A stretch of 64,000 bases of DNA from Polytrichum commune (lineage: Eukaryota; Streptophyta; Polytrichopsida; Polytrichales; Polytrichaceae): NCBI GenBank assembly GCA_950295325.1, contig OX485808.1:7258501-7322500 (forward strand), given 5' to 3'. The notes beneath the pieces are model-generated. The model was not told the DNA's origin. It did not search any database and saw only the letters and a list, made by a program, of their open reading frames with translations. Positions 8,368-54,047 of this stretch are shown here, piece after piece; position 1 is the first letter of the stretch; each line of letters starts with the position of its first letter. A program made the translations under genes and the position numbers.

Positions 8368-8890
8368 CCTCGGCAAGATCGTGAAAGACAAAGCTCCGTT
8401 TTGGTCCCTAGCTTTCGATTTGAGACACTCGGTAAGATCGTGATAGACAGCTCCGTTTTGGTCCCTAGGCTTCGATATGAGACACTCGGTAAGATCGTGA
8501 TAGACAAAGCTCCATTTTGGTCCCTAGCTTTCGATCTGAGACACTCGGTAAGATCGCAATAGACAAAGCTCCGTTTTGGTCCCTAGCTTTCGATCTGAGA
8601 CACTCGGTAAGATCGCAATAGACAAAGCTCCATTTTGGTCCCTAGCTTTCGATTTGAGACACTCAGTAAGATCACAATAGACAAAGCTCTGTTTTGGTCC
8701 CTAGCCTTCGATCTGAGACACTCGGTAAGATCGTGATAGACAAAGCTCCGTTTTGGTCCCTAGCTTTTGATCTGAGACACTCGGTAAGATCACAATAGAC
8801 AAAGCTCCGTTTTGGTCCCTAGCTTTCGATCTGACACACTCGGTAAGATCGTGATAGACAAAGCTCCGTTTTGATCCCTAGCTTTTGATA
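8368..8890 (+). repeat. 59-bp tandem array, about nine units
   Basis: Nine head-to-tail units each contain AGCTCCGTTTTGGTCCCTAG, a TTCGATCTGAGACACTCGG block and AAGATCGTGATAGAC. Unit starts fall at about 8393, 8450, 8508, 8567, 8626, 8685, 8744, 8803 and 8862; the second lacks a few bases. Variation is concentrated at one site, GTGATAG versus GCAATAG or ACAATAG, which changes between units. No spacers differ between units, so it is a minisatellite and not a CRISPR array. Confidence 0.95.
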
Positions 8891-11540
8891 TGATCCACGG
8901 ATTTACGTTGAGTTGAAACAAGATCCAATTTAAAGCACAGTCATCGGCCCCAACTTGGTCTTCAAGTCATGGCTTGCTATCATCTCAGATCTGTGAGTAA
9001 ACAGGACCTTAATGTGGACACATAATTCTCACTCCACTGAGGCCTTAACCCCTAAGAGCTCAAGCTGTCAAATTTCATTTTCGACCAGTGCTGAGAATTG
9101 TTGTTATGTATAAAATAGACTCTGTTTTCTTGAGATCCAACCGTACGGATGCGAACTAGATTACCATTTATTCTTTTTGCAAAAATTTGGTGTCAATCGG
9201 ATGACATTTTTCAGGTTAGCTTTGACATATGAACATGGTCTTCATCCGGGGGTTAACTAGAGAAAATTATAAATGTTTTTTTGTTTCATGACCATTTCAG
9301 TGTTGTCATAAATTTTAGAAAGTTGGCAACTTTGCCATAATATGTTATGTGGATGATGCATGGGCTACTCTCAAATATTTGGGGTTTTTTGAGCAAATTT
9401 AGATGAAGTCCATCACCCTCAAAGTTGGAGGGGCCACATGAGGTCATTTTGGGAGAATTTCTCCTTTTTCATTGAGCATGCACCATGTGCACTAATTTTT
9501 TTTCCCCTTTCCAAATTCATCTGGTCAAGTTGTGCACAACCATCCGGTCCGAGATGACCCTAAACTGCGGGGTGATAGTGGAGAGGTAACCATTTCTGAA
9601 TGGAGTGGTTGGTAGTTCAATTCCCACTGTGAAACCTTCTCTCTACCCCACCCTGCACCAAGAGGATTCTTGAGCAAGGTAGGGCCAAAGGGCTCAAATT
9701 CACATCGGATTGCCCGACGTTGGCTATTTGTTTATTTGCACAACCGTTACCTTGTCCTAAGGGGAAAAAAACCCACCCAAATTTGGACATCATATGTGAA
9801 AGATATTGGCTCCTACATTTGGCTCCAACACTTGGGCAATACATGGAACAACCTCCCAAAACAAGCAATGCCAACCTAACAAAAATTCCTACATGCTTGG
9901 AGTATGAGGTTTTTATATGTTATTTTGGCCCACATGGTAGTGGGCACCACCCTATATCAATAGATATCTTCCATCCATGTAGATTGCCACCCAGTGGGTC
10001 GCAATCCCCATCAGAACATTAGGTGGTGACCTATTTCGGGTTGCATGAGCATATAAGATTAAAGCGTCACTTTTAGAATTTTCTACAAATTTCATATCGT
10101 TAGAAGTATCCATAACAATTATTTAGCTATCATCAACCATTCCATTCTAATAATATTCACTATGAATTTATCTGCAATGTAACAATGTGGGAGGGCAATT
10201 TTTCCCCAATTTCTTTGAGTTAATGTAATGGCCCACACAACCATGCCAACGGTAACGAGCAGTGGCGCGCTGGCTAGGCCTAGCGGCGGGCATAACCTTC
10301 TGTTTGCAAATGGCCACGTGTGATAGAAATCTGGGTAGGTCAGAGTTGGCCCGCAGCAGAAGAGGCCACTTCTCCAAAGATGCAGTAAGTATACTACAAA
10401 TCTAGGTAGGTCTCTCGCTAGTTCGAAGAGGTAAGTTGCAACATGTCTGTGCAGATCGCTAACGCTTCTGACAGGGTCGAAGAATTTGCAAGCATGGTCG
10501 ACAATATCCTTCAAATTTCACCCATGATAGTTTTCCATTGCAGCCGAGATTGTTACAAATGTGTTTCCCATGTGTTTTTCTCACTATTCTTCAGATCGTA
10601 CTTTGAAAACTCCGAATCGTGTGCGTTCAGAGGTCCTGCATGTATCAGAGTTTTCAAACTTGCACCCCGAAATCCGATTCATTGCATGTGAGTTCACATT
10701 TAGATCTGCTTTCGCATTCACATATGTCATTTCAGTTCGGTCTGCTTCCTTCATATACGCAACCTTTGAATTTGGTTTTGGGTTGTCATGAGAGGTTGGG
10801 GTTTAGTATTTCATATTCTGTTAGATTCCTTTGATTTCGAGCACAATTTCGAGTTTAATCAAACTGGAATGCAAACTGCTTGGGCTTCTCGTGCGTCATA
10901 GAATCCTTGTGACGACAAACCATTAATTCTGTCAAAGGAGGGTACCAAAAATTCGTGGAGGAAGGTACTCAACTTGTGAATGCTTGTAAACAAGGTGGGG
11001 TAGGGTGGTGGACACTGCCTCCTGGTAGTTTATTTTCCCCTAAAACCACAGGGCATGTTCCTAAACATTATTCAAATGGCTTGCCAAGTTGCTCCAGCAA
11101 ACATTGCAGATATGGGTATCTTCCACATTTAGTTTGAATGTGGCCACTGTTTAATCCCACTAATAACTGACCCCAATGAACAGTTTGCAGTGTCTGAATA
11201 AATGTTATGTCCAAATAATTCCAGGAAAGTTTCGTAGATTAGCGAACACGAGTCGGAATGAAGCAACTAGATTTCAACGCAAATGAAGTTTGTATTAAAC
11301 TGGGGCAAAATCAGAAAGGCCATCTTTGATTTGAGCCTTTCAATGCTACGTAAGCGGGGTCTATTCATGTGTGCATGTTTTGGTGAACATGCTAGCTAGC
11401 TAGCTTCGCACTAGAGACCCAAAATTGGTGAACTATTGGAAGTGTATTACTTTAAGGCCTCGGTACCTTAGATAGACAAATTTGATCATCGGATCAGATT
11501 GGGAATTGGTGTTATCTCAGATTCTATGTCTCAGATCTCG
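8891..11540. other. gene-free stretch with a possible SINE head
   Basis: No gene is recognised. Near 9568-9640 there is a Pol III-like pair, TAGTGGAGAGG followed by GTTCAATTC, as in tRNA-derived SINEs. A 131-codon open frame on the minus strand (10119-10514) and several short frames have no recognisable motif and no splice context. The rest is unremarkable AT-rich sequence. Confidence 0.5.
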
Positions 11541-14724: not shown

Positions 14725-17660
14725 AACCTCATTTTCACCAATAGGATCCGTAGGAAGCATAAATAAATGGAACTTAAATATTGGAATTATCGTGTATGAA
14801 TAAACCTCTCATTCATCCAACATAAAAGCTCTAAAGTACCGTAGTTAAATAGCAGGTTCGGCACAAAATAATTCTAAAAATAGATGCCTAAAATTTTGGA
14901 ATATTATTGGCATTTTTTGCCCAATATAAAATTAATTATTTTTCAAAACTACCGAAAAGTAAGAAATTTTTACTTCTCACTAGAGTTTTACTTACAGTGG
15001 AAGCATATGTGGATTTTGAAGGAGAGAAGGTGCTCCTTTTGTAATCAAGCTCACTTACATTAGTCCACAAAGAATATGGGTTAAGAAGTAGCAAGATTCT
15101 AGGTGAGGCTTTTCAAATGTGTTGTACACAAATTTTTGGAGTCCAATTGAGCATAGAAGATGAAGTTTTACAAAATTTTGTCCAACTAACAAAAGTTGAG
15201 AAATCAATCCTTCTTCCACCTCCAACAAGTTTTGTGTCAAAATAAGTCTTTATGCAAAAGATATGGACAAAACATTGCAGCCGTGTAAAGATCAAAAAAT
15301 TAAAATGCGTTCATAACAGTTTTTCGGAGCTCATTTGTGCATAGAAGATCAACTTTTTTGGAATTTTGTTGGTCTAAGAAAAGTTTAGAAATCAAGTAAT
15401 CTTTCACCTCCAACAAATTTTATGTCATTTGAAGACTCTATGCAAAAGTTATGCGTGTTATAAAAATGAAGTCTAACTCGGTGGTTCACCTCAAAGTTTA
15501 CATATCCCATATGCATTGTTGAACACAACTCCACTCTACTTGCATAAAGCACAGAGCATTCTCAACTCTTCACTCACATCATACTTGTCATTCAATGCAA
15601 GAGAGATGTACAAGATATAAGCTTAAATTAAAAATGAATTTAAGCCGAATTTTTAAAAATTGAAAGAGAAAATTGCCGAAAATGTGAATATACTATTTTT
15701 AGGTGCCGAACCTACTTTTTGAACTTTAATTAAATATTAGGCAGCAAGTTGCCGAACCTGCTAGTAAACTACGGTAGTATGCATCCCAAACATGCACCTT
15801 TTAACCTTGATCTTATTCAGGTTTGTTTCCATGTAGGCCGCTTGTCCACTAGATTCAAGATAATAATCAAAATTGAACTTAAACCCACAAAATGTAGCAC
15901 AATCATACATTTTGAAAGCTTTGAATACGCCAATAGTACATAGCAATGGTTTGGATAACTTTGAAAAGATAAATAACTATGAAACATGTGGTAGACAATA
16001 TGTGTCTTTGATGAATCATCATTTTAAGAATATGTGAATGCCCTTTAGCAACAAGTTAGCAACATAAGATAAGTATACCCTAAACCAAAATTAAACATGA
16101 ACCCACATAATGTGCCACAATCATGCATTTGGGAGCTTCAAATGTAAGCCTATGGTACCGTAGCACCATAGCTGTTTCGTCCAAAAATAATTCCCAAATA
16201 AAAAACCGAAAAAAATCAGAAATTATGAGTCCAATCAAACGAATAAGTGAAAATTCACATTAGAAAAAAAAACGAATAATGGAAAATTTGGACTCTTCTA
16301 AGCTCCAACCACGTCAACGTGTTATAAGAGGTTGCATGATTACGCGTTAATGGCTCGGCGTCTTGCTCACGAGCTTCACGAGGTTGCTCAAGTCACGGGA
16401 CAAAAACGCCGAGCACTTCCCAACGCTACCCATAAAATGCCTTGCCTTCATCTTGCTTAGTAAGTGTAGAGGAGGGGCTCATGAGGGCGAGGAGACCCAA
16501 AGGCTTAATACATGGGGAGCGGCTCTACCAACCTATACCTAACCATCGTTTTTGTGCTTTTATATTTGCAAATCATGTTGTTCTCATTCGAGAAGGGGTT
16601 AAGATACACGTTGCTAGATTTTGTGTTGAGAGCGTGGGATGGCGAGGTGAAGGAACTGGAGGAGGGACTTCCATATTGTTTCTGGCATCTAGATTTTGTG
16701 GTGAGGGAGAAGGGAGAGGAATTTGTAGCCTTCTCCAAGATACTTGCAAGATTTAAGCTTAAAGAGTTCCTATGAGAATCTCACTGAGTGCATATATACT
16801 CTCCAAGATGCTTATCTAGGGTTCGGTGAAGACGCACTACAACACTTAGGAATGCTCTGCGGTTCCAGAATTGACATTCGATCTATTCAAGCTTTTGTTA
16901 TGTGAAAGTGAATTAGGGTGAACGGGGAACGGGGGTCACGGCCAGAGGGACAAACACATTTTATTTGTGAATATTCTCATGAATCTCGGTTTATCAAATC
17001 CTTGTCGTAGGAGTGGGAGCTCCGATCGCTGGCCCCAACCATCACACTGGACTCCGGAGTATGCATCTCTCCCTGTATTGCCACCTTCCGGAGGAGCCTC
17101 TTGTTGTGCTATTGTGTTGTGTGTGCAAAGCAATGTCATATGTCCAGGGTTTAAGCGTTGCGCGAGTGTCTTCAATTTTTTGATTTCTGATAGAACCAGT
17201 CTGGATTTGTGACTTGCAGCAATTGATGGAAAATCTGAGTGAAGACGGGGTTGAGTGAGCGAGCTTTGTGATGAGGGAATCAATTAGTTTGCAACCTCAC
17301 TATGTCACTCTGTAATCAATCTAGCTCTTGAAGTGCACACACTCATGTAGGATGTTCAGCAGTTTGAACATATTAGTCAGATTCCTTGCATTGGCCGCCT
17401 AATGAGCCTGACATGTGCAAAGACGAACAAGAGCCGCAGTAAGTAAAGTTAAGGTGGATACTTAGGTCTAAGGCCAAGAAGCCGCCACGAATGAATGAAA
17501 AAAACAACAACCTACTTGCACAACTGCTGGACCTTAACGAAAAAATGAATTAACATTTTTAAAATCATAGGATTGACGAAATTGCATAAATTATATTTTT
17601 CAATGACGAACCTTCTTTTTCAAAAAATAAATAAATATTCGTTTTGAGGTGCACGAACCA
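14725..17660. other. gene-free stretch, partly repeat-derived
   Basis: The 15.75-16.17 kb part belongs to the repeat cluster that continues at 17.66-20.6 kb. The 16.3-17.3 kb part has a slightly higher GC content and several overlapping open frames on both strands (for example 16512-16775 and 16936-17283). None shows a recognisable domain, and no consistent splice structure was found. It could be an old retrotransposon remnant; this is not demonstrated. Confidence 0.4.
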
Positions 17661-18141
17661 GCTATGGTGCTATGGTATACAACAATGTTTTTTGGTATGC
17701 CATCCCATCTTCTAAAAGATAGACAATGATAAAACATACGCCGAACAATAAATGCTATGATGAATGGTTGTTTAAGAATTGGCTTATTTGAACATGTGGG
17801 AGCGTCCTTCAACAACAAGTTAACTACATAAGATAATCATACCCTAAACTAAAATTGAACCTAAACCCACAAAATGTACCACACCGATAAATTATGGACC
17901 TTTAAATGTATGCCTATAGTACATAGCAAAAGAAAAAAAATTAGTTTACCATCCCATCTTCCAAAAGATGTGACAACAATGACATTATGAAACATGCGCC
18001 GGACAATAAAGGCTATGATGAAACATGGTTATACATGCATGTGGGAGCTTCAAATGTATGCTTATAGTACATAGCTATGGTTTTGGGCATGCCTACCCAT
18101 CTTCCAAAAGATAGACAATGATGAAACATGCACCAAATAAA

Positions 18142-18857
18142 CTCGGGGGGTGCACTGTACTAAACATGTACGAGTATACGTGAGTGCACAAGAGGGGTAT
18201 TGATTTGGACCTTGCCGTATTACGTATACATATGGTATACATGTTATAATTTACAGTTACGTACATATATGGAAGGCCTTTAAAAAGTATACAATAATTG
18301 TACTTGTATGGTATTGTTACTATACTACATATCATAAGTTTTCATATTGGATGCAGAGGAAGTTTTGTAATCGTTGGGTGGAGTATAGGGATCCAATTGA
18401 CTTGATGGACCGTCCATCAAACGTGGAGATTGGTTTATGTTGGTATCAAAAAGGGGCTAACAACAAGTGGACATATGATCTTACTGATCATTTGATGGTA
18501 GACTTAGAGACAATAATTGCATTGGCTACAATGACATATATTGGTGAATCAAATGTTTATGAGTTACATCCGGGAGATGAAAAAGTTTTCAACGATTTTG
18601 ATGATGAAAGCTAGGATATTTTGTTATACATATTATAGGGGTTGATTATTGTTCAAAAGTATATTTGTATATTTATGTTAATGACTATATATGAATGGAT
18701 GTTTTTTTGTGTATACATATTGTCACTTGTATATTTATTGTTGCAATTGTATGTGTATTACTTCATTTCACAAAAAATAACTTGTATATAGGGGGTTTTT
18801 AGAGTATGCAGTGAACGCACGTGATTCTAGGTTTTAATGAAAGGTGCACCCCCCGAG
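18142..18857 (+). mobile_element. 716-bp hAT-like non-autonomous transposon carrying an ORF
   Basis: Perfect 14-bp terminal inverted repeats, CTCGGGGGGTGCAC at the left (18142-18155) and its reverse complement at the right (18844-18857), are flanked by an exact 8-bp duplication CAAATAAA (18134-18141 and 18858-18865). Neighbouring copies of the host repeat carry the equivalent unoccupied site (for example near 17735 and 20600). Eight-base duplications are typical of hAT elements, but other superfamilies can make them too. The element is too small for a transposase and contains one 87-codon frame preceded by sequence like a splice acceptor (TTGGATGCAG). Confidence 0.88.
18351..18614 (+). pseudogene. 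87-codon ORF inside the hAT-like element, possible captured exon
   Basis: The frame runs ATG to TAG with balanced composition, unlike the AT-rich repeats around it. It contains RWVEYRDPIDLMDRPS, a LCWYQKGANNKW stretch and an acidic tail (FNDFDDES). I do not recognise the family. The TTGGATGCAG just before it looks like an intron end, so it may be an exon fragment captured by the transposon (a Pack-type element), or a piece of the parent element's own gene. No promoter or partner exon was found. Confidence 0.4.
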
Positions 18858-19694
18858 CAAATAAAGGGTTGGATGTATCATCGTTTCACAATTAGCTTAT
18901 TTGAACATTTGTGAACGCCTTTTAACAACATAAGATGATTATACCCTAAACCAACATTGAACCTAAATCCACAAAATGTATCAACCTTATGTATTTTGGA
19001 GCTTCAAATGTACATATATTGCACATACTTAGGGTATGATTACACTGAAGGTATTATAGGTTATGACTCTTAAATGATCATGGTACCTTGGTTTTTGGAT
19101 GAGAGCGTAGAGAAGTCCATAAGTCTTTTGAAGGTCACAAGCCGTTAGTGTAAACCCAAATGGGATTAAATTTTTATTAAAAAAGAAACTCATCATTTTT
19201 AAGTTAGATATGAGAATGCATCATGAAGAAGAGAAGAAAGAAAGTGTTTGTAGCTTTGTTCATGTGAATTTGGTGTTTATATATGTTGATTCAACAAGTT
19301 TTGAGCAGTCAAGCTCTATTGATAGGGTATGAATTAGGAAAATCATTTTGTTTACTACATAGTAGTTACACATAAAGTAACCTTCTACATTAGCTCCAAC
19401 AATCATATTTTGATTCAACATGAATAGCATTAGTATATGTTATTTTCACAAGTTGTCATGGGTTATCCCCAAGTGTTTGTTGCACATTCTGCCATGCCTA
19501 CCTTTAAGAGTTGCTATAAAAAACCCCTACAATCCCAACCAACTTCATCCATACTTGCCATGTGGGATTCCATGTAGATTTTTCATTCATTGAAAATGTT
19601 ATGGGCTACAATAAAAAAACTACCCTCATGTAAACCTAAAGCAGGGATCCATGACACTTTCAACCAATGAAAATTCAAGGATTCTCAAGAGCTT

Positions 19695-20500
19695 AATAGA
19701 GTTATTTATAAAGTCTCACGAGGAGGGATGAAACCATGAGTTTGATCCTTCCTCGAGAAAACTTTCCATTAAGAGCTCATTACCTCATCATACATTGGAG
19801 CCTATTTTGAAAGTTGGGTGCAAATTTTAGGACCTCCTCTTGTGTATGGTAATTTAGTCATTAACCACTAAAAGCATGGGGGTTTTTAGCTTGAATCAAA
19901 GATGCACCATAAAGTACAAATCATAAACTTTATATTGGCATACAAGAGAAATTTTGGGGAGTTAATTTTAAATCACATCTATGTAATTGAAATATGGAGC
20001 TTATATCCATGGTCTCCACCAAGATCATTTTACCAACATTTTTCTTTAAGAAAGTAATAAGAATTCCAAAATGTATTATAATCACTTGACCTTCGATATG
20101 ATTGGCTAAAAGGTTGAGCTACATAATTGAGTGGGAAAAACCAAAAATGTTCATGTCACTGACATTGTTACTCTCCCAAAATAGCTAGTTCAGGGGTTCC
20201 AACCACTTCAAAATCCATATCTTAGAATCATTCATATAAAATTTCAATCCGTTTGCTCTAGATGGTGCAGAATTTTATTATCTCAAGGTGCTTTAAAAAA
20301 ATTATAAATAAATAAATTAGGGGAAGGTTTGCCTTGAAAGAGATATCTTGAGAGAGAGACACTCACAACCACTTTCAATTGGCTTCTTGGACATTTAGGA
20401 GTTAAGAAAACTAGAGTGACTTTGTGTTAGTTCTCATAAACTCAAGGTTTGGGACTAAAACCCATGGTTTGGTTTCATCTCCTTTGCTTTACAAACAACT
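19695..20500 (+). repeat. dispersed repeat S, copy 1
   Basis: Sequence here matches the reverse complement of 53040-53480. Paired landmarks are CTTTCCATTAAGAGCTCATT (19764) against TAATGAGCTCTTAATGGGAA (53391), the CCTATTTTGAAAGTTGGGTG block, and TTTGGGACTAAAACCCATGG near 20448 against CCATGGGTTTAGTCCCAAA near 53083. The second copy lacks much of the middle. Confidence 0.6.
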
Positions 20501-20615
20501 GTAATGGCTCTCGTCCTTAGATATGGTTTTGGGTAAGCATGCCATGCCATCCCCACTTCCACTTCCAGAAGATATGTAGGCAGCGATGAAACATGCGCCG
20601 GACAATAAAGGCCAT

Positions 20616-21583
20616 GAATCGTCGTGATTCATACACACAGACACATCCCTCAGAATTCTCAACTTCTGTCCATCGCCAGAGTGGCGTCCTCAACGGCTAC
20701 AAGGCTCCCAATTCAAAATTTGAAGGTGGCAAGACCTCAACAGCCCGATCAATGAATATGATAATGAAGGCACAGAAAATGGCCACCCTGTCCTCTCCTC
20801 CACCACCGCCATCGCCATAGCCGCTTTCTCTCGCTCTCTCCCCCTAACTTAAGCCTGCCGAGGATCTCACAGTATCTATGCAATGACCTAATAAACTACT
20901 TATGTCAGCTTGAGCTTCGAAAGTTACCCTCTTCAAGGTTTGTGAGTGGATTATTGCCTTCTGGGTTAACGCACCTTACGTACATACTTACTGTTCAGTG
21001 TTGCCATCTCCTCACATTGCAATCTTGGGAGTTGGGTCAGCTCCCATTGCTCAGTTTGCAGAGTTCTTGCGGCGGCTGCTCCTTGTCAAAGGTAGGTCAG
21101 TCTTCCAACACCAGATCGAAGCAATGTGTGATTACAGTTTCTGAGAGTTTCGTAAGATGATGTCCTTTGCTTGCTTTTCCTCTTCTTGTGGTTGGGGAAT
21201 TAATAGCAATTTTATGGCTTCTACACTCTATTCATCTAGTGGGAGAGACTCTTGGATCCCGGTGTTCGGGTTTTGTCATTCTGGAGTATTGCGTATTTGT
21301 GGATTTGCTTGGCAATGTCACCGGGTAGTAAAAACAAGTTGCAAAATTAATTCTCTGTATCTTTCGTGTCTTCTGTTCTTGTTGAGCTCCTGATCAGTGC
21401 CTCTGCCCTGCCTTCGTCCCATTATTTGAAAAGGAATAACGTAGAGCCCTTCTGAGTGATGTCAAGCTCTTTCACGCCAACCCGGCCAGGAAGATATAAT
21501 TTTGTTTCTGAAATGTTTTAGTGGGTTTGCTCTTCTCTTCTCTTGCCAGAGTTCCCAGAGGTTCATAGTTACTGATCTTCGCA
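20616..21583. other. upstream region of the acidic-protein gene
   Basis: No ORF here is convincing. The stretch has CT-rich runs (TCTCCTCCACCACCGCCATC at about 20793, then CTCTCGCTCTCTCCCC at about 20828) of the kind seen in plant promoters and 5' leaders. It is the likely promoter and leader of the gene starting at 21584. Confidence 0.35.
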
Positions 21584-25554: not shown

Positions 25555-28500
25555 ATGGAAGGAAGCACCACCAGACAAGGAGGCAGGATCAAAAGTAGTT
25601 TGCGCAGTCAGAGACGTGGAGCGCATCATACTCAGAAAGAGGCAAACGATGATGAGACCCATACTGCAGCTCCTTCATTCTTGAAAGTCGTCGAGGAGGA
25701 GCATCTGACTCATTCCAGTTCTCTGGTACTTGACCTTAACCCTCCCTGCCTGAGAAAAAAACACGGACAAACAATTGTATCCAGATGATTACCATGGTCG
25801 TTGCAAAGCATTAGAATATGACTTTACGAAGGTCAAAGGTTAGTTACACTATGCAAAGCCGATGCCCAGGAGCTTCATAATTTACAGATGCTCCTCTGAT
25901 GATCTCTTAATTTTGCGTATGATGCTTACTGACATTGTAAATGCTTTGATCGGCAGTCAATACCTGAGAAGTTCATGGAGGAACAAGGGTACAGAATTGA
26001 CGATGCGGTCAGTCTCATAGGACCGGATGGACATGAGTTTCTTGCATTCTTAGGAGACGACCGAGCGCACGCATCATTCCGAGCAGGTTTTGCCCATTTT
26101 TTTGCGCACCACGATGTGCAAGCAAGGGAGACTCTGCTGTTCAGTCTTGTTGGGGACTCCACCTTTCGAGTTAAAGTGTACAACGAGTATGGTTGTGAGA
26201 GAAAACATTTCACACCGAGGTGGCCGAATCCCCCGCCATGGCTCAACGTAAAGCAAGAATTTGTCAAGAGCAGCGACCCATCCTCCAGCAAGAAAAAACC
26301 TCGTCAGATATGGAACTTCTTTGATGAGCCTCATCGACAGGCACAACGACACAAGGAAACCAGTAGGCCTAAGCCTCACAATGGTGCAAATGGGTCCGAC
26401 AACCTAGGCAAGAAAAGGTGTAAAGTTTACGACGAGGAAGTAGAAGATATATACGGCGATGGGATCAACGAAGTTTATTTCGAGGAACCAATTTCCCCAA
26501 TGCCAGGCATTGGAATTGTTCGGCGGCCTGGGTTGCAGAGCTATGGTAAGAGAAGCGAGCAAGAGACTCAGCGGCAGCGGACGGCGCCAGTCTTTGAGAT
26601 GTTGCACAAAAAGCCAACGCAATATTCTCCCAAAAATTCATCAGCATCCAAGGCGGTGGGTCCTGATCATCTCGTGAGGCAAAACAGTTGCACAAGCGAG
26701 AAAAAGATTTTGAACAAAGGAAAGCGCAAGAGCTCGCTCGAGATAGGACGTAAAAGGAAGAAGGTGTGTACCGGTGCCCAGTTCCTCAATAACCATGACT
26801 CAACCAGCGAGTGACTCATTTTTCGGACGACACTACCTCTGAACGTAGAGGACACCTCACTTCTGCATGCATGCTTTTCTTCTTTCTTATTCTCCTGATC
26901 AGCTTTTAAGGTTGTAAAAATTTGGCCATCAGGCACTAAATTTGGTCAGTTGATTGAGCAGGTCCGGCACCATCTCACATCAGAATCCGAGCCATTGATG
27001 ACGTTTCCCCACGACTCTGAAGCCACGGCACCCAAGGAAGCGTTCGTGATGCAGCTTGCAGCAGTGGAAGCATGCAAGACGCGTCAGCCTAGTACCAGAC
27101 TCTACATCAACAAAATATCAGCTACACACAGTTCCGCAGTAAGAATCTCTGACATGTGCATTCATTCAGTAGGAGATTGGCTAACAGGCAGCTCCATGTT
27201 CCCGAAAAAATGTACAGACCAACATATCCTCTCTGCTCATCGATCAATTATTTGGTAACGGACTTGCTTAACACTTCTAACATTCGCCAAGCGTCTCCTT
27301 TTTCAAAACTCATCCTTTTGCATACAAGACCTTCTATGTTCGGTAGGTTTTCGGTGCATCCTTGGAGGTAGTGTAGAGAATGAATGAGCATTAAAATAAC
27401 ATCCTATAATGGTCAAACTCATTTCGGTATGCCAAGAGGTGCTAAAACGATTGGCACTCTATGCCCGAAATAGGCTGCTACTCATTCAAATTCAGCAATA
27501 CCTTCGAGTATGCATCACCACAAGTAAAAAATAAATTACTGATTTTGCATGCAAAACAACCAGTGAAAAATCATAGGGGACTGGTCAACTCTCCACGAAA
27601 ACTTGGCCCATTGAGTTAAAAATTGAGTTCTCTATTGTGCTCAGATATTCCCAACGGAATTTGCAAAAAAATGGATTCCAAGTGGGACGCAGCAAGTTCG
27701 CCTGACGAAGAACGCGAGACGCTGGGCCGTGTCGTGGGATGAGACGCAACAACGAAGGCCGAGCCTCGGAAACGGCTGGAGCCGTTTTGCTAAAGAGAAT
27801 GAGCTCCGAGACGGAGACGTATGCGTTCTGGAGCTCGTGCATCCCGTGCGAGTCGAGTTTCGGGTTCACCTGTTTCGCATCGCAGATTACGTTTTCAAAG
27901 ACCCAGCTCCAGATCAGCGATTTGTGGACCCACCTGGCAGCAGAATGTCTCCGTTCAATGGAATTGGTGTGGCGAACGGATGCAAGTCTGCTGCAGAAAG
28001 TAGTCGGGCAGGATCATTGAGAGGCCGGAAGTCTATTGCAGTTGACGCAAAGATTGGGGAGGCTGTCAATGCTTTCCAGCTCAGGAATCCTCATATTCCC
28101 ATTGTCATGCGAGTGGGACATATCATCAGACAGTACAATGTGGTAAGCAAATTACTAATTCTGTCAATGTTTTGAGGGTCGTACTGGTGATGCTGTCTGT
28201 CTTCAAAGTTCAATCCCTCTACTCAGGCAATCATTATGGACCATCATCTCTGGACCTGCCGTCAGGAATCAAAATTGTTAATTCTCATCAAGATGTAATG
28301 CATGTGAGACAGATTTGTATTAATCAGAGATAGTTGCCATTCCGACTCTAGAGAACTTGAAGATTGAGAGCTTGAAGAAAGAAGCCTTCCTTCTCATTGC
28401 CGGGGAGCCTCTTACTCACACTTGTTCACTCAAGTCCACTTCCACTTGACCTTTCAACTTGAGAGCTTCAACTTTATTTGCACCGAATAAACAACTCTTA

Positions 28501-42197: not shown

Positions 42198-43892
42198 GTT
42201 TCTGCTCAAGTCTAAAACATTGAAGCATCATAACACTAGGACATTGAACGTGTGTAGTTGTCGGTAGAAGATGAACATTTACCCATACGCGGTCCCCGAA
42301 GGTGATATGCTTTGCCATTTTTGACATGGCCTTAATTAGCTCGTGCATTCAAGACTGGTAATGGAAACTAACTATGTTGGGGTATCTAGCTAGTAATGCA
42401 AGTGCTATGTGCCATATCACTAGAAGGAATGGGGGTCCCCTTCGACATACCCCTTTGACATATATGCAAACAAAGTATTGTAAAGTGATCCGTTCCCGAG
42501 GCAACAAATGTCAACCGTCGCTATTTAATGCTCACGGTGGCATTTGGGATTGGAAAGATGAGGACTTCTCCACGTTGTCTTCCTCCACCCTCGATCTAGG
42601 TCAAGAATCTCCATGATCGTAGGTCCTAGAGAGGAGGGCGTCCGAAATCCATGTGTTGGTAACCAAGCTTGGGGGGGGGGGGGCATCCCGGTTCTTGGTT
42701 TTAAGTAGTCCATGAAGGTTCATTGGTCCTTTTGTAGTGTATTAAAATGAGATGAGTGAATTATTGAGCTCAAACTATCAAAGGATCACAAAATATTCAT
42801 ACAAATCTTTACAAAATTTGTATGGATAGGCAAGACGAGGCAAGCCCTCGCTCTCTCACGCCTATTTCTAATGTTAGGAGATTCCAACACGTTTGAATAA
42901 GCCGCTTGTTTTATATTGTTAGACGCTAGAAAACGAGTATGCCGTTGCTTTCTTACCCAAGAGATGGGAGGTTCGAAACCCTTGCACAGTCCGCCACACA
43001 TGCCTAGATTGGAGTCCGCAAAAATGGCAACATCCCATTAATTTGAGTGATTGGGAACCGGAGCTTGAAGTGCCTTGCAATAGTTGACTAGCGCACGCAG
43101 ATGAACTAAAGGTGACAACATTAGCATGTATTTTGAGGAGAATGGAACTCAAGTCACTTCAAGGTTTTGGTGTGTGACAAGATATATAGGTGTATATAAT
43201 CCGTGATTTTGTCCCCGGTGTGTGCGTTTCAATAACTTTGCACCAAAGTATATTGAATGTAACCATGAGAGGACAAATTGACGAAAGGGCCTTCCGTTTT
43301 GGTCAAACTTGCACGACACCATATCATGCAAGTTACAAACTTCGTTGTTGCTTTATATCATATCCAAACCCTAGTTTCTTGTCAAACATGCACTCTCGCA
43401 TCCATTCATGGTGTTCAAACTTAGTCTACAAAACACACACCTAAAGATTTCAAAGGCACCAACACAAACATCTCACGATCATTGTGCATTCGAAGCAAGA
43501 GATTTTCATCCGAACAAATAAACAATCTAAGCTTCATGGACATCGATCGGTCATCGGTTTTGCCCAAATGCACATAACATGATAGTGAATTGTAATTGAA
43601 CATATGTTAATTGGCCCCGCTTGGATACTCATGGCCGACTCGATCGCGTGTAGGTACCTCGTAGGACGTCATAGGTGTGTCACAACTTGTCACCATAATG
43701 CAACAAGCCAATTTTACATAGTACCGGGACTTGATTGGATGTTCAATGATGCTCTAAATTTAAGGAGACTTGACCTTTAAGAGGCCGTGAAGCAACGATC
43801 ATCACTTAGGTACATGAAACCCATTTAATGCGATGCCAAGTTGTCGACATTGAAGTTTGGAGCTGAGCCGTTCACGTCCTTCAACGTATGCA
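42198..43892. other. gene-free stretch
   Basis: A 13-base G run lies at 42671-42683. A TTCGAAACCC B-box-like site near 42973 has no convincing A-box partner. No coding or repeat structure was recognised otherwise. Confidence 0.5.
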
Positions 43893-44872
43893 GGGCCACT
43901 TCGCACATGAGCCAAGAGCCGTGACCGTGAAATTGTGAGAGCCCAAAAGAAAGTGTCCAAAGCCCATCCCAAGACACTTCCAAAATCATGTAGTGCGCTC
44001 ACGGGCCCTCAAGGTAGTGTGAAGTCATATATCACCGGGCCCTCAATCAAATGCTATTTCAATGAATTTCTATTCATGCGGGTCCTCACACATGACAAAA
44101 TAAAACAAGAAAACGGTAGAACCGTGAGGCTATGTCTTTTACTATGAAAGACTACAATTATAGTTGTCCAATTTGCTCATGCCAATCCATGGCTATTTAC
44201 TATACCAAACCTTTCTTGGATTTTGTGCACCTTCTTCTCAAATGCAGGTCAAGGATTTTGATATCACCCGAAATATTTAGAATAAATAATCAAGAACTAC
44301 CAAAATAACTATAATTAACTAAATTTCTTTCAATGCATTTTAGGGAGCAATTATAGTTCTATATGTACATACATATATATATGTACACACATATACACAC
44401 ACATACACACATACATACATATACACACACATATACATATATAATTATAGTTAACATCCACATTAAATAAAGTGGACCAAATATAACAAGAACAAGTAAC
44501 GTCCAAGTGTGAACGCAAAGTGGTTAGGAAATTTGCTCTTGAAACGAAGAAGTTGATGCATAGCTTTTGTCCTACAGACAGAGCCAATAAATCAATGATT
44601 GTAAGCATTTGGAGTGCCATGGTCTTCCAACTTTGTGTTAGGCCTACCTCCAGAAGGTGGTTTATGAAAATAATCCAAGTGACCATGAAACATGGTCCAC
44701 TTGATGCCATGTAGGAATCCATGTAGACTTTGCATCCATCTTGCATTCACATACTATGTTGGTCCCTCAAGCGTAGTGTGAAATGAAGTCAGACCGGCTC
44801 CACCTTTTCCACCAATGAGAGTGCTTGAAGTGTAACAGTCACGGGCTCTCAGTCTCATGTGTGAAGTGGCCC
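43893..44872 (+). mobile_element. MITE family D, copy 1, split by a nested insertion
   Basis: The ends GGGCCACTTCGCACATGAG and (reverse complement) GGGCCACTTCACACATGAG match the element at 53562-54047 throughout, apart from an extra 481-487 bp at 44105-44591. The left flank GCA and right flank TCA do not match exactly, so the target duplication has decayed. Confidence 0.82.
44105..44585 (+). mobile_element. 481-bp insertion nested in MITE D copy 1
   Basis: Comparison with the intact relative at 53562-54047 places the insertion at an AATAAA, duplicated at 44099-44104 and 44586-44591. No terminal inverted repeats are visible. It contains a TA/CA-rich microsatellite at about 44356-44452. Class unknown. 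Confidence 0.6.
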
Positions 44873-45832
44873 TCAAACTTTCTATACCTTTCATTAGAGC
44901 TATAGTTTATTAGATTGACCCATACTAATTCATTGACATCCCACTGTGAGGCCAAACCCACCACCCTTAAGCGTCCTAGTCCGGGTGATAGTTTTGAGAA
45001 TCACATGCACTCCATAGAAACTTGTGGTAGCGTGAAATGTAACTTCCATCTCATTGGGCACCCACCTTACTTAAAGTCATGTCATTTTATTAATGCTAGC
45101 CTCATGAATGGGTGGAGCGTTGGGCTTCTCAAGGGTCCAACCCTCAGCCTTGGCTACACATGCCCTTAAGGATATTCCTCTTGAAACCTTAGCTTTGGCC
45201 AAGGCTTTCTCATTAGTGATCTTAGCCTCTGTGAGGCTATGGCTTGTAGACTCCATGTGGCAATTAAGTGTCTAATGTATTAATCCCCCATTGTCAACCC
45301 AAGGCCGTTCTCTTTGTGTGGAACCACACAACCCACCCTGGTACTTCACATCAAGCTTAGCACTTCAATTTATTCCATAATAAGGACACAAGTGTTAAAA
45401 AACACTATTCCCTATTCTATTGCCATCTCACCCCTTTGGACCATTGCTTAACTACCACTCTAGTCTAAGGTATGTAACCCCGCTATAAACCTCGGCTCCT
45501 TCAACCTTAGGTGGCAGCATCTTAATAATCCCAGCTCTCCCTAGTTGTGGCAGCAGCCTGATAGTCCAACTCTCCCTAGTTGCGGCAACAACCTTATAGT
45601 CCAGCTCTCCCTAGTTGCGGTAGCAGCCCGATAGTCCAGCTCTCCCTAGCTACGGCAGCAGCTTAATACTACCAGCTCTTCAAACCTTAGTCTACTTAAT
45701 CTCTAACAAACCCCCCCTAGCTAATTAATCTAACCAAGCCTTACTAATCCTAATAAACTACTAAGTAAGTCCCACCTTAATCAACTATATTTCTAAGTTC
45801 CCCCTAATCACATATATTTTCTAACACACTAC

Positions 45833-48478: not shown

Positions 48479-48957
48479 TAAGGCTGAATTGGTTGAAATT
48501 GGTTGAAATGGGCCCCAACCCCTTTACACCTAGAGGCCAGGCCGATTTAGTGGCATGAATTTTTTAATCAAAAAATACATGGTATGACATGGCCTAGGCT
48601 CATTGAATTGGGTGCACCCAAAATGGAGGGCCAATTCATGGCCTTGGGACCAATGTCACATTTCAATTAAAAAAACTTTTTAATAGAATATGATTTTTTC
48701 AGCGAACTATATCCATTGGATTATGTGAAAATATGAACGGCTCTATGCTAGATTATACTAGTTCCGTTGGATTATGCTGGATTTATTGAATCGGCCTAGC
48801 TTCTTAACCCTAAGACCTTTACATGTGGAAAAATTGACACCCATTATAATCTTATTATAATGTGTAGTTGAGGCCGGCCTCCAACCCAAAAAGGGTTGAA
48901 ATTTCATGCAATTGGCCTCAAGGGGAATTGGCCCGGCCTCTAGGTGTAAAGCGGCCC
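48479..48957 (-). mobile_element. MITE family A, copy 2 (inverted, left end altered)
   Basis: It is the reverse complement of the element at 1705-2245 over most of its length, including the AATTGGGTGCACCCAAAATGG and GAACGGCTCTATGCTAGATT blocks. The right end GGTGTAAAGCGGCCC is intact and followed by TTA. The left end diverges (GGGCCCCAACCCCTTTACACC lies about 30 bases in), so that boundary is uncertain. Confidence 0.75.
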
Positions 48958-49122
48958 TTAGAAAAGATGGAAAAAACGGAATCTAAGCACCTGACAATGA
49001 ATGGATCACGGCCCAAGGGATTCGTTGATACTAATTTAAAATACACGTGTTTGTCAGGCCCAAATCATAAGCTTATCATCCCTATCGGCCGTCTCTTCAA
49101 TCTCAAGGGTTTGATGATACGA

Positions 49123-49624
49123 TAGTCACTTCACACACGAGACTGAGAGCCCGAGACCATTACACTTCAAGCACTCTCATTGGTGGAAAAGGCGGAGCTG
49201 GTCCAAGTTCGCTACTTCACACTACGCTTGAGGGACGAACGGAGTATGTGAATGCAAGATGGATGTAAAGTCTGCATGGATTCCTACATGGCATCGAATG
49301 GATCGTGTTTCATGGTCACTTGGACTATTTTCAAAAACAACCACTTGGAGGTAGGTCTAACACAAAACCGGGAGACCATGGCATTCCGAACGCTCACAAC
49401 CGTTTATTTATTCTATTTTTATCACGTGCGAGGGCTTGCATGAATAGACATTCATTGAAATAGCATTTGGCTGAAGGCCCGGTCACATATGGCTTCACCC
49501 TACACTTGAGGATCCGTGACCACACTACATGATTTTGTAGGTGTGTTGGGACGGCCTTTGCACACTTTCTTTTGGGCTCTCACAATTTCATGGTCACGGC
49601 TCTTGGCTCGTGTGTGAAGTGGCC
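49123..49624 (-). mobile_element. MITE family D, copy 2 (inverted)
   Basis: This is the reverse complement of the 53562-54047 element: TCACTTCACACACGAGACTG at the left and GGCTCTTGGCTCGTGTGTGAAGTGGCC at the right, with matching interior (AAGGCGGAGCTGGTCCAAG, CTACATGGCATCGAATGGAT). The extreme left bases have decayed. Confidence 0.78.
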
Positions 49625-50103
49625 ATGAGCACTTGTGACCATTGCACTTCAAGCACTCTCATTGGTAGAAAAGGCGGAGCTAGTCCAAGTTCGCTTCACA
49701 CTATGCTTGAGGGACCAACGGATTAAGTGAATGCAAGATGGATATAAAAGCTACATGGATTCCTACATGGCATCCAATGGATCATGTTACGTGGTCACTT
49801 TAATTATTTTCAAAAACCATCTCTTGGAGGTAGGCTGAACACAAAACCGGGAGAGTATGGCACTGTGAAATCTCACAACAATTGATTTATTATATTTTTA
49901 TCATGTGTGAGAACCTTGCATGAATAGACATTCATTGTAATAGCATTTGGTTGAGGGTCAAGTCACATACAATTTCACACTACACTTGAGGGACCACAAC
50001 CACAATACATGATTTTGGAAGTGTCTTGGGACAACCTTTGGACACTTCTTTTGGGCTCTTACGATTTCACAGTCATGGCTCTTGGCTCATGTGTGAAGTG
50101 GCA
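49621..50103 (-). mobile_element. MITE family D, copy 3 (inverted, abutting copy 2)
   Basis: Directly after copy 2, the D interior restarts (CATTGCACTTCAAGCACTCTC) and runs to GGCTCTTGGCTCATGTGTGAAGTGG. The two copies appear to share the GAAGTGGCCATGAGCAC junction, with no spacer and no separate target duplication. They form a head-to-tail dimer. Confidence 0.75.
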
Positions 50104-53561: not shown

Positions 53562-54047
53562 GGGCCACTCCACACACGAGCCGAGAGCCATGACCATGAA
53601 ATTGTGAGAGCCCAAAAGAAAGTGTCCGAAGGCCGTCCCAACACACCTCCAAAATCATGTAGTGTGGTCACGGATCCTCAAGTGTAGTGTGAAGCCATAC
53701 GTGATTGGGCCTCAACCAAATGCTATTTCAATAAACCTCTCTTCATGCAAGACCTCACACATGATAAGATAGAATAAATCGATGGTTGTGAGCATTCCGA
53801 GTGCCATGGTCTCCCGGTTTTGTGTTAAGCCTACCTCCAAGATGTGATTTTGAAAAATAGTCCAAGTGACCATGAAACATGATCCATTGGATGCCATGTA
53901 GACTTTACATCGATCTTGCATTCACATACTCCGTTGGTCCCTCAAGCGTAGTGTGAAGCGAACTTGGACTGGCTCCACCTTTTCCACCAATGAGAGTGCT
54001 TGAAGTGTAATGGTCACGGGCTCTCAGTCTCATGTGTGAAGTGGCCC
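53562..54047 (+). mobile_element. MITE family D, copy 4 (intact, 486 bp)
   Basis: The ends are GGGCCACTCCACACACGAG and (reverse complement) GGGCCACTTCACACATGAG, with exact TTA on both sides (53559-53561 and 54048-54050). This is the best-preserved D copy and the reference for the nested and tandem copies at 43.9 and 49.1-50.1 kb. Non-autonomous, PIF/Harbinger-like. Confidence 0.88.

Follow-up and report, generated by a model that had tools for sequence, protein, structure and literature searches.

The window, which is the whole stretch of 64,000 nucleotides analyzed here, carries a 716-bp element at positions 18142 to 18857, placed on the forward strand according to its inner reading frame. 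From its ends, its target duplication, and empty sites nearby, it was filed as a nonautonomous, hAT-like transposon with terminal inverted repeats. Inside the left inverted repeat, a subterminal noncoding region occupies positions 18156 to 18350 of the same strand. This assignment was made from a hexamer count and from a composition unlike that of proteins over 18204 to 18350, and the region may end in a leftover intron. A frame of 87 codons follows (18351 to 18611, with its stop codon at 18612 to 18614; forward strand). A splice-acceptor-like stretch, TTTTCATATTGGATGCAG, was recognized by eye in a direct reading at 18339 to 18356 of the forward strand. Its CAG, at 18354 to 18356, may mark the acceptor of a final exon starting at 18357. 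The remainder of the element, up to the right inverted repeat, is a T-rich region at 18615 to 18843 (forward strand) that resembles a 3' untranslated region.

Other features of the window were also recorded. Twenty of the 194 window frames of at least 70 codons were scanned against Pfam, and four of them had matches at E values of up to 0.01. The strongest was to an exon of a 2-oxoglutarate oxygenase (E, 3e-19). The other three stayed below the Pfam cutoffs, namely, a B3 domain (3.5e-5), an exon of ribosomal protein L3 (0.0012), and NCC-H at 10119 to 10517 (0.0034), the last of these being doubtful. No transposase was recognized among the 20 frames. Judged by its genes, the window has the look of land-plant DNA. 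Several B3-domain-like frames could be seen by eye on both strands between 25933 and 35763, and the B3 match came from the one at 25933 to 26814. A repeat family of about 470 to 500 bp with GGGCCACT-like ends was found at 53562 to 54047, at 43891 to 44873 (interrupted), and, as two copies in tandem at 49.1 to 50.1 kb, at 49127 to 49624 and 49635 to 50102. The copy at 53562 to 54047 carries a perfect terminal inverted repeat of 8 bp along with a TTA duplication, and we take it to resemble a PIF/Harbinger MITE. The sequences at 1698 to 2164 and 48506 to 48964 are 89.5% identical in opposite orientations. The former has inner inverted repeats (CTTTACACCTAG...CTAGGTGTAAAG), the latter also has inner inverted repeats, and the two are probably members of another MITE-like family; none of the borders tried, up to 25 bases away, gave them a structure of ends plus duplication. 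A minisatellite with a 59-bp unit (8.9 copies, 91% matches) lies at 8369 to 8893.

Borders of the element and unoccupied sites

The left end of the element, CTCGGGGGGTGCAC (18142 to 18155, forward strand), is present as its exact reverse complement at the right end (18844 to 18857, reverse strand). According to the scan, these terminal inverted repeats are perfect over 14 bp, and the resemblance between the two ends is gone past that point. Both direct reading and a script scan showed the sequence CAAATAAA directly outside the two ends, at 18134 to 18141 and at 18858 to 18865. This duplication is exactly 8 bp long, and the ninth base is not the same on the two sides. The window was then scanned for pairs of perfect inverted repeats (8 bp or longer, 60 to 8,000 bases apart) with abutting exact direct repeats. 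Only one pair, the 716-bp element, had an 8-bp duplication. Two pairs, with inverted repeats of 9 and 8 bp, had a 7-bp duplication, and no pair in the window had a duplication of 9 or 10 bp. The chance level was taken from 150 simulated windows (first-order Markov). In these, the mean number of 8-bp duplications was 0.29 with inverted repeats of at least 8 bp and 0.027 with repeats of at least 10 bp, and no such duplication occurred with repeats of at least 12 bp. When up to three mismatches were allowed, the 14-bp ends had two matches in the window, both of them the element's own, and no further copy.

To look at the site before insertion, the element was taken out with one duplication kept, and the joined flanks were aligned to the rest of the window. 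The best match was a unit of a host repeat at 17671 to 17910 on the forward strand, which was identical at 181 of 240 positions (75%), and the alignment ran across the junction. Weaker matches were found at 15926 to 16146 (162/239), 17904 to 18035 (89/132), and 20496 to 20625 (87/133). The best paralogue has a 3-bp gap exactly at the target; therefore, the precise borders are set by the duplication and the inverted repeats and not by the paralogues. The paralogues demonstrate an insertion event without fixing its borders to the base. Since the scan exceeded the chance level and unoccupied paralogues were present, the insertion at 18142 to 18857 is practically certain. The sequence-only reading had described a 716-bp transposon with perfect 14-bp ends, an exact 8-bp duplication, and unoccupied sites next door, and in all these respects it was confirmed.

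The host repeat cluster extends from 15869 to 19012, with a further unit at 20496 to 20625. It consists of diverged units that are about 65 to 81% alike, and the element lies among them. Within the cluster, the joined flanks diverge from the best unit by about 25%, and shorter stretches diverge by about 19% or more. None of the 22 paired positions of the element (14 in the ends and 8 in the duplication) showed a difference, a result compatible at 95% with a pairwise divergence of up to about 12.7%. Because the paired positions are identical while the cluster has diverged by about 19 to 25%, the insertion is probably more recent than the cluster. The description of the element as young, made earlier, says more than this, and 22 identical base pairs bound the age too loosely to bear it out.

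Coding character of the 87-codon frame

Upstream of the 87 codons, the reading frame stays open to 18204, giving 136 codons in total. An ATG-to-stop frame of at least 87 codons was found in 116 of 2,000 simulated elements. Stop-free stretches of at least 87 codons occurred in 19.5% of 2,000 simulations, and stretches of 136 codons occurred in 0.7%. The length of 87 codons is thus only mildly surprising. The amino acid composition was more distinctive. The 87 codons scored +0.06 bits per residue, which is protein-like, and this was equaled by 2 of 1,502 null frames and, in a repeat with random open frames, by 3 of 1,504. When the null frames were allowed to choose their best start, 6 of 1,504 reached it, and when they were read from the first Met, 2 of 523 did. 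The preceding 49 codons scored -0.335 bits per residue, which is not protein-like, and given this difference it is unlikely that the 136 codons form a single coding unit. Taken as a whole, the 136-codon frame has an ordinary composition, equaled by 205 of 1,504 null frames, and its composition index placed it at 122 among the 302 window frames of at least 60 codons.

Other measures pointed the other way. The three-base periodicity of the frame was unexceptional (equaled by 245 of 1,502 null frames). A codon-usage score trained on the genes of the window was -0.063 in the frame, above that in the other two forward frames and below that in two of the three reverse frames. The change point that best divided the composition was at 18390, which is 33 bases into the putative exon and not at the acceptor. 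Because composition speaks for coding and periodicity, codon usage, and change point speak against it, we regard the 87 codons as likely, but not proven, to be coding-derived DNA.

Subterminal regions

The left subterminal region contains TATACA at 18225, 18236, and 18288; the right one, which spans 229 bp between the stop codon of the frame and the right inverted repeat, contains TGTATA at 18666, 18710, 18728, and 18783 and TATACA at 18625 and 18712. This hexamer thus occurs 9 times in the two noncoding flanks combined, against 2.61 expected, and is absent from the frame. Some hexamer reached 9 occurrences in 0.032 of the simulations, and neither 5-mers nor 7-mers were enriched in the flanks (0.156 and 0.23, respectively). 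Since the enrichment is marginal, the TATACA/TGTATA repeats give a mere hint of candidate transposase binding sites.

Searches for relatives of the frame

No Pfam family matched the 87-residue frame at E values of up to 10. A YWFCY match (E, 0.074) to residues 21 to 50 of the 136-codon frame was rejected; it was below the threshold and fell in the part that is not protein-like. Two PDB matches (E, 0.21 and 0.28), both to repetitive dTor proteins, were attributed to chance. AlphaFold2, run on the single sequence, gave no confident fold (mean pLDDT, 45.8). Within the window, no donor of the frame was found, the best off-target tblastn match having an E value of 0.67.

Pattern searches were extended to viral and prokaryotic DNA, both of which say little of a plant host. 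In IMG/VR, two stretches fitted the pattern, and neither was a relative of the frame. In GTDB contigs, 40 stretches fitted the pattern and 3 passed tblastn. These three matches (L001, L002, and L003) were judged to be due to chance, with alignments of only 29 to 30 residues that all end in DEKVFNDF, and L001 and L003, when translated, resemble bacterial membrane proteins. No prokaryotic relative of the frame was therefore found in these contigs. In a literature text search, both 14-mers and a 12-mer from the ends were absent among the matches listed; only a 9-mer was found, and the papers with it, among the matches listed, dealt with unrelated subjects judging by their titles. Four peptides from the frame had no occurrence in the same kind of search. 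A stretch like DPIxL is often present after the dimerization domain in DUF659-type plant hAT transposases, and the sequence DPIDL in the frame may be a lead in that direction.

Superfamily placement and origin of the element

The hAT terminal consensus is (C/T)A(A/G)NG. The first five bases of the element, CTCGG, fit it at positions 1 and 5 and misfit it at positions 2 and 3. Mutator-like duplications are usually 9 bp long, with a range of about 8 to 11 bp, and a duplication of exactly 8 bp is at the edge of that range. The 14-bp ends and the 8-bp duplication agree with those of hAT transposons, for which ends of 10 to 25 bp and duplications of 8 bp are given in PMC3942097. We used the label "hAT-like" because the duplication and the end length fit, whereas the end consensus fails and no transposase was seen in the frame. 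On sequence grounds, hAT is the best guess at the superfamily, and membership is not established; the same label in the sequence-only reading thus stood as to the duplication and the ends and failed as to the first five bases. It is unlikely that the element belongs instead to another superfamily with duplications of about 8 bp (Zisupton/KDZ, Mutator-like, or other), a possibility compatible with each of the readings of the frame. The misfit of the ends would favor it, and Zisupton makes 8-bp duplications (PMC12730594), so that the length agrees with Zisupton/KDZ, although Pfam found no such transposase in the frame. On the other side, short ends together with 8-bp duplications are hAT traits (PMC3942097). 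Most plant Mutator-like members have long inverted repeats (PMC3310237), whereas those here stop at 14 bp, a difference from the majority type but not from types without long repeats.

As the best explanation, we tentatively propose that the element is a nonautonomous, hAT-like internal-deletion derivative that kept the terminal coding exon and 3' end of its parent, a reading that falls just short of probable. A longer parent would have lost its interior by internal deletion. What is left of it would be the end of the final intron, the final coding exon (18357 onward, about 85 codons), and the 3' untranslated region next to the right end. A transposase from a full-length relative elsewhere would bind the 14-bp ends and subterminal motifs, perhaps TATACA/TGTATA, excise the element, and insert it at an 8-bp staggered cut, after which the gap would be filled in. 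The target would have been one unit of the local host repeat cluster. The frame, its stop codon, and the T-rich 229 bp that separate it from the right inverted repeat lie where the terminal exon of a deletion derivative would sit, and the switch from a composition that is not protein-like before 18351 to a protein-like one after it supports a deletion. The presence of the hexamer on both sides of the frame, and its absence within it, also speaks for the proposal. Such elements have precedents. For the hAT element BuT2, PMC3942097 describes 24 short sequences of 532 to 927 bp, thought to be products of internal deletion; the complete BuT2 is 2,775 bp long, and its predicted last exon stops at 2,627, 148 bp before the element ends. 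Maize Ds-l3 elements are reported to contain transposase fragments (PMC3260210). Against a deletion origin are the absence of transposase similarity in the frame (no Pfam family at E values of up to 10), the single-copy status of the ends in the window and their misfit to the hAT consensus, the change point at 18390, the ordinary composition of the 136 codons, and the marginal hexamer enrichment.

The frame could also be read in other ways. The element may be of the Pack type, with hAT-like ends around an exon (acceptor and stop codon) captured from a host gene, which we consider possible but on the unlikely side. Pack-hAT elements have been reported from maize (PMC8903248), gene fragments are carried by maize Ds2 and Ds-l4 (PMC3260210), and the frame is protein-like without matching any Pfam transposase model. 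However, the other Pfam families gave no match either, and solved structures gave none better than chance, whereas such matches would often be expected of a conserved host exon; moreover, no donor was found in the window. Of the two origins that the sequence-only reading offered for the frame, a leftover transposase exon and a captured host exon, we favor the former. If the frame instead arose by chance in AT-rich filler, the element would be a plain hAT-like MITE, or Ds-l4-like, with no coding content. The frequency of frames of at least 87 codons in the simulations, the ordinary periodicity, the codon usage, and the low pLDDT obtained from one sequence are all in line with this, whereas the rarity of null frames with such a composition and of 136-codon stop-free stretches speaks against it. 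On composition, a chance frame is less likely, and overall we find it improbable. Least credible is a plant transposon family with terminal inverted repeats and unusual CTCGGGGGG ends, in which the frame would be a C-terminal domain, outside Pfam, of a transposase or accessory protein; if true, the 87 residues would be the first glimpse of that domain.

Whichever reading applies, the element is an exactly delimited example, and its ends can be used as a query for an autonomous parent in the host genome. As a leftover exon, as we prefer, the frame would be a pointer to the C terminus of the parent; if it had been captured from the host, it would add a further instance of exon shuffling through hAT-like elements. 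Either outcome would be routine in plant genomes.

Comparison with known elements

The end sequence of Ac/Ds elements is other than that of the 716-bp element. Their ends are 11 bp long and their subterminal repeat is AAACGG (PMC3260210), whereas here the ends are 14 bp long and the repeat, if real, is TATACA/TGTATA-like. In other respects the element is like maize Ds-l3 and Ds-l4 of the Ac/Ds family (hAT), which are nonautonomous and have short ends and 8-bp duplications (PMC3260210). In maize B73, the same source reports 903 elements that combine Ac/Ds ends with an 8-bp duplication. It gives a modal length of about 1 kb for Ds-l4 elements, which contain filler that matches genes in a few of them. 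With maize Ds-like and Pack-hAT elements as precedents, the element appears to be of an ordinary and common kind. Like Pack-hAT elements (Pack-TYPE), it seems to be a nonautonomous hAT-like element with coding DNA (PMC8903248). Unlike them, it has no donor gene in the window, where it is also single, and the Pack-hAT method described in PMC8903248 discards singletons. The short derivatives of BuT2, of the Tip group of hAT, occur in an animal host and have a known parent, whereas no parent was seen in this window. According to PMC3942097, 18 of the 24 short copies have ends highly similar to those of BuT2, and 14 have identical flanking duplications. The element resembles these derivatives in size, and the internal-deletion origin that they are thought to have is the one that we tentatively propose here.
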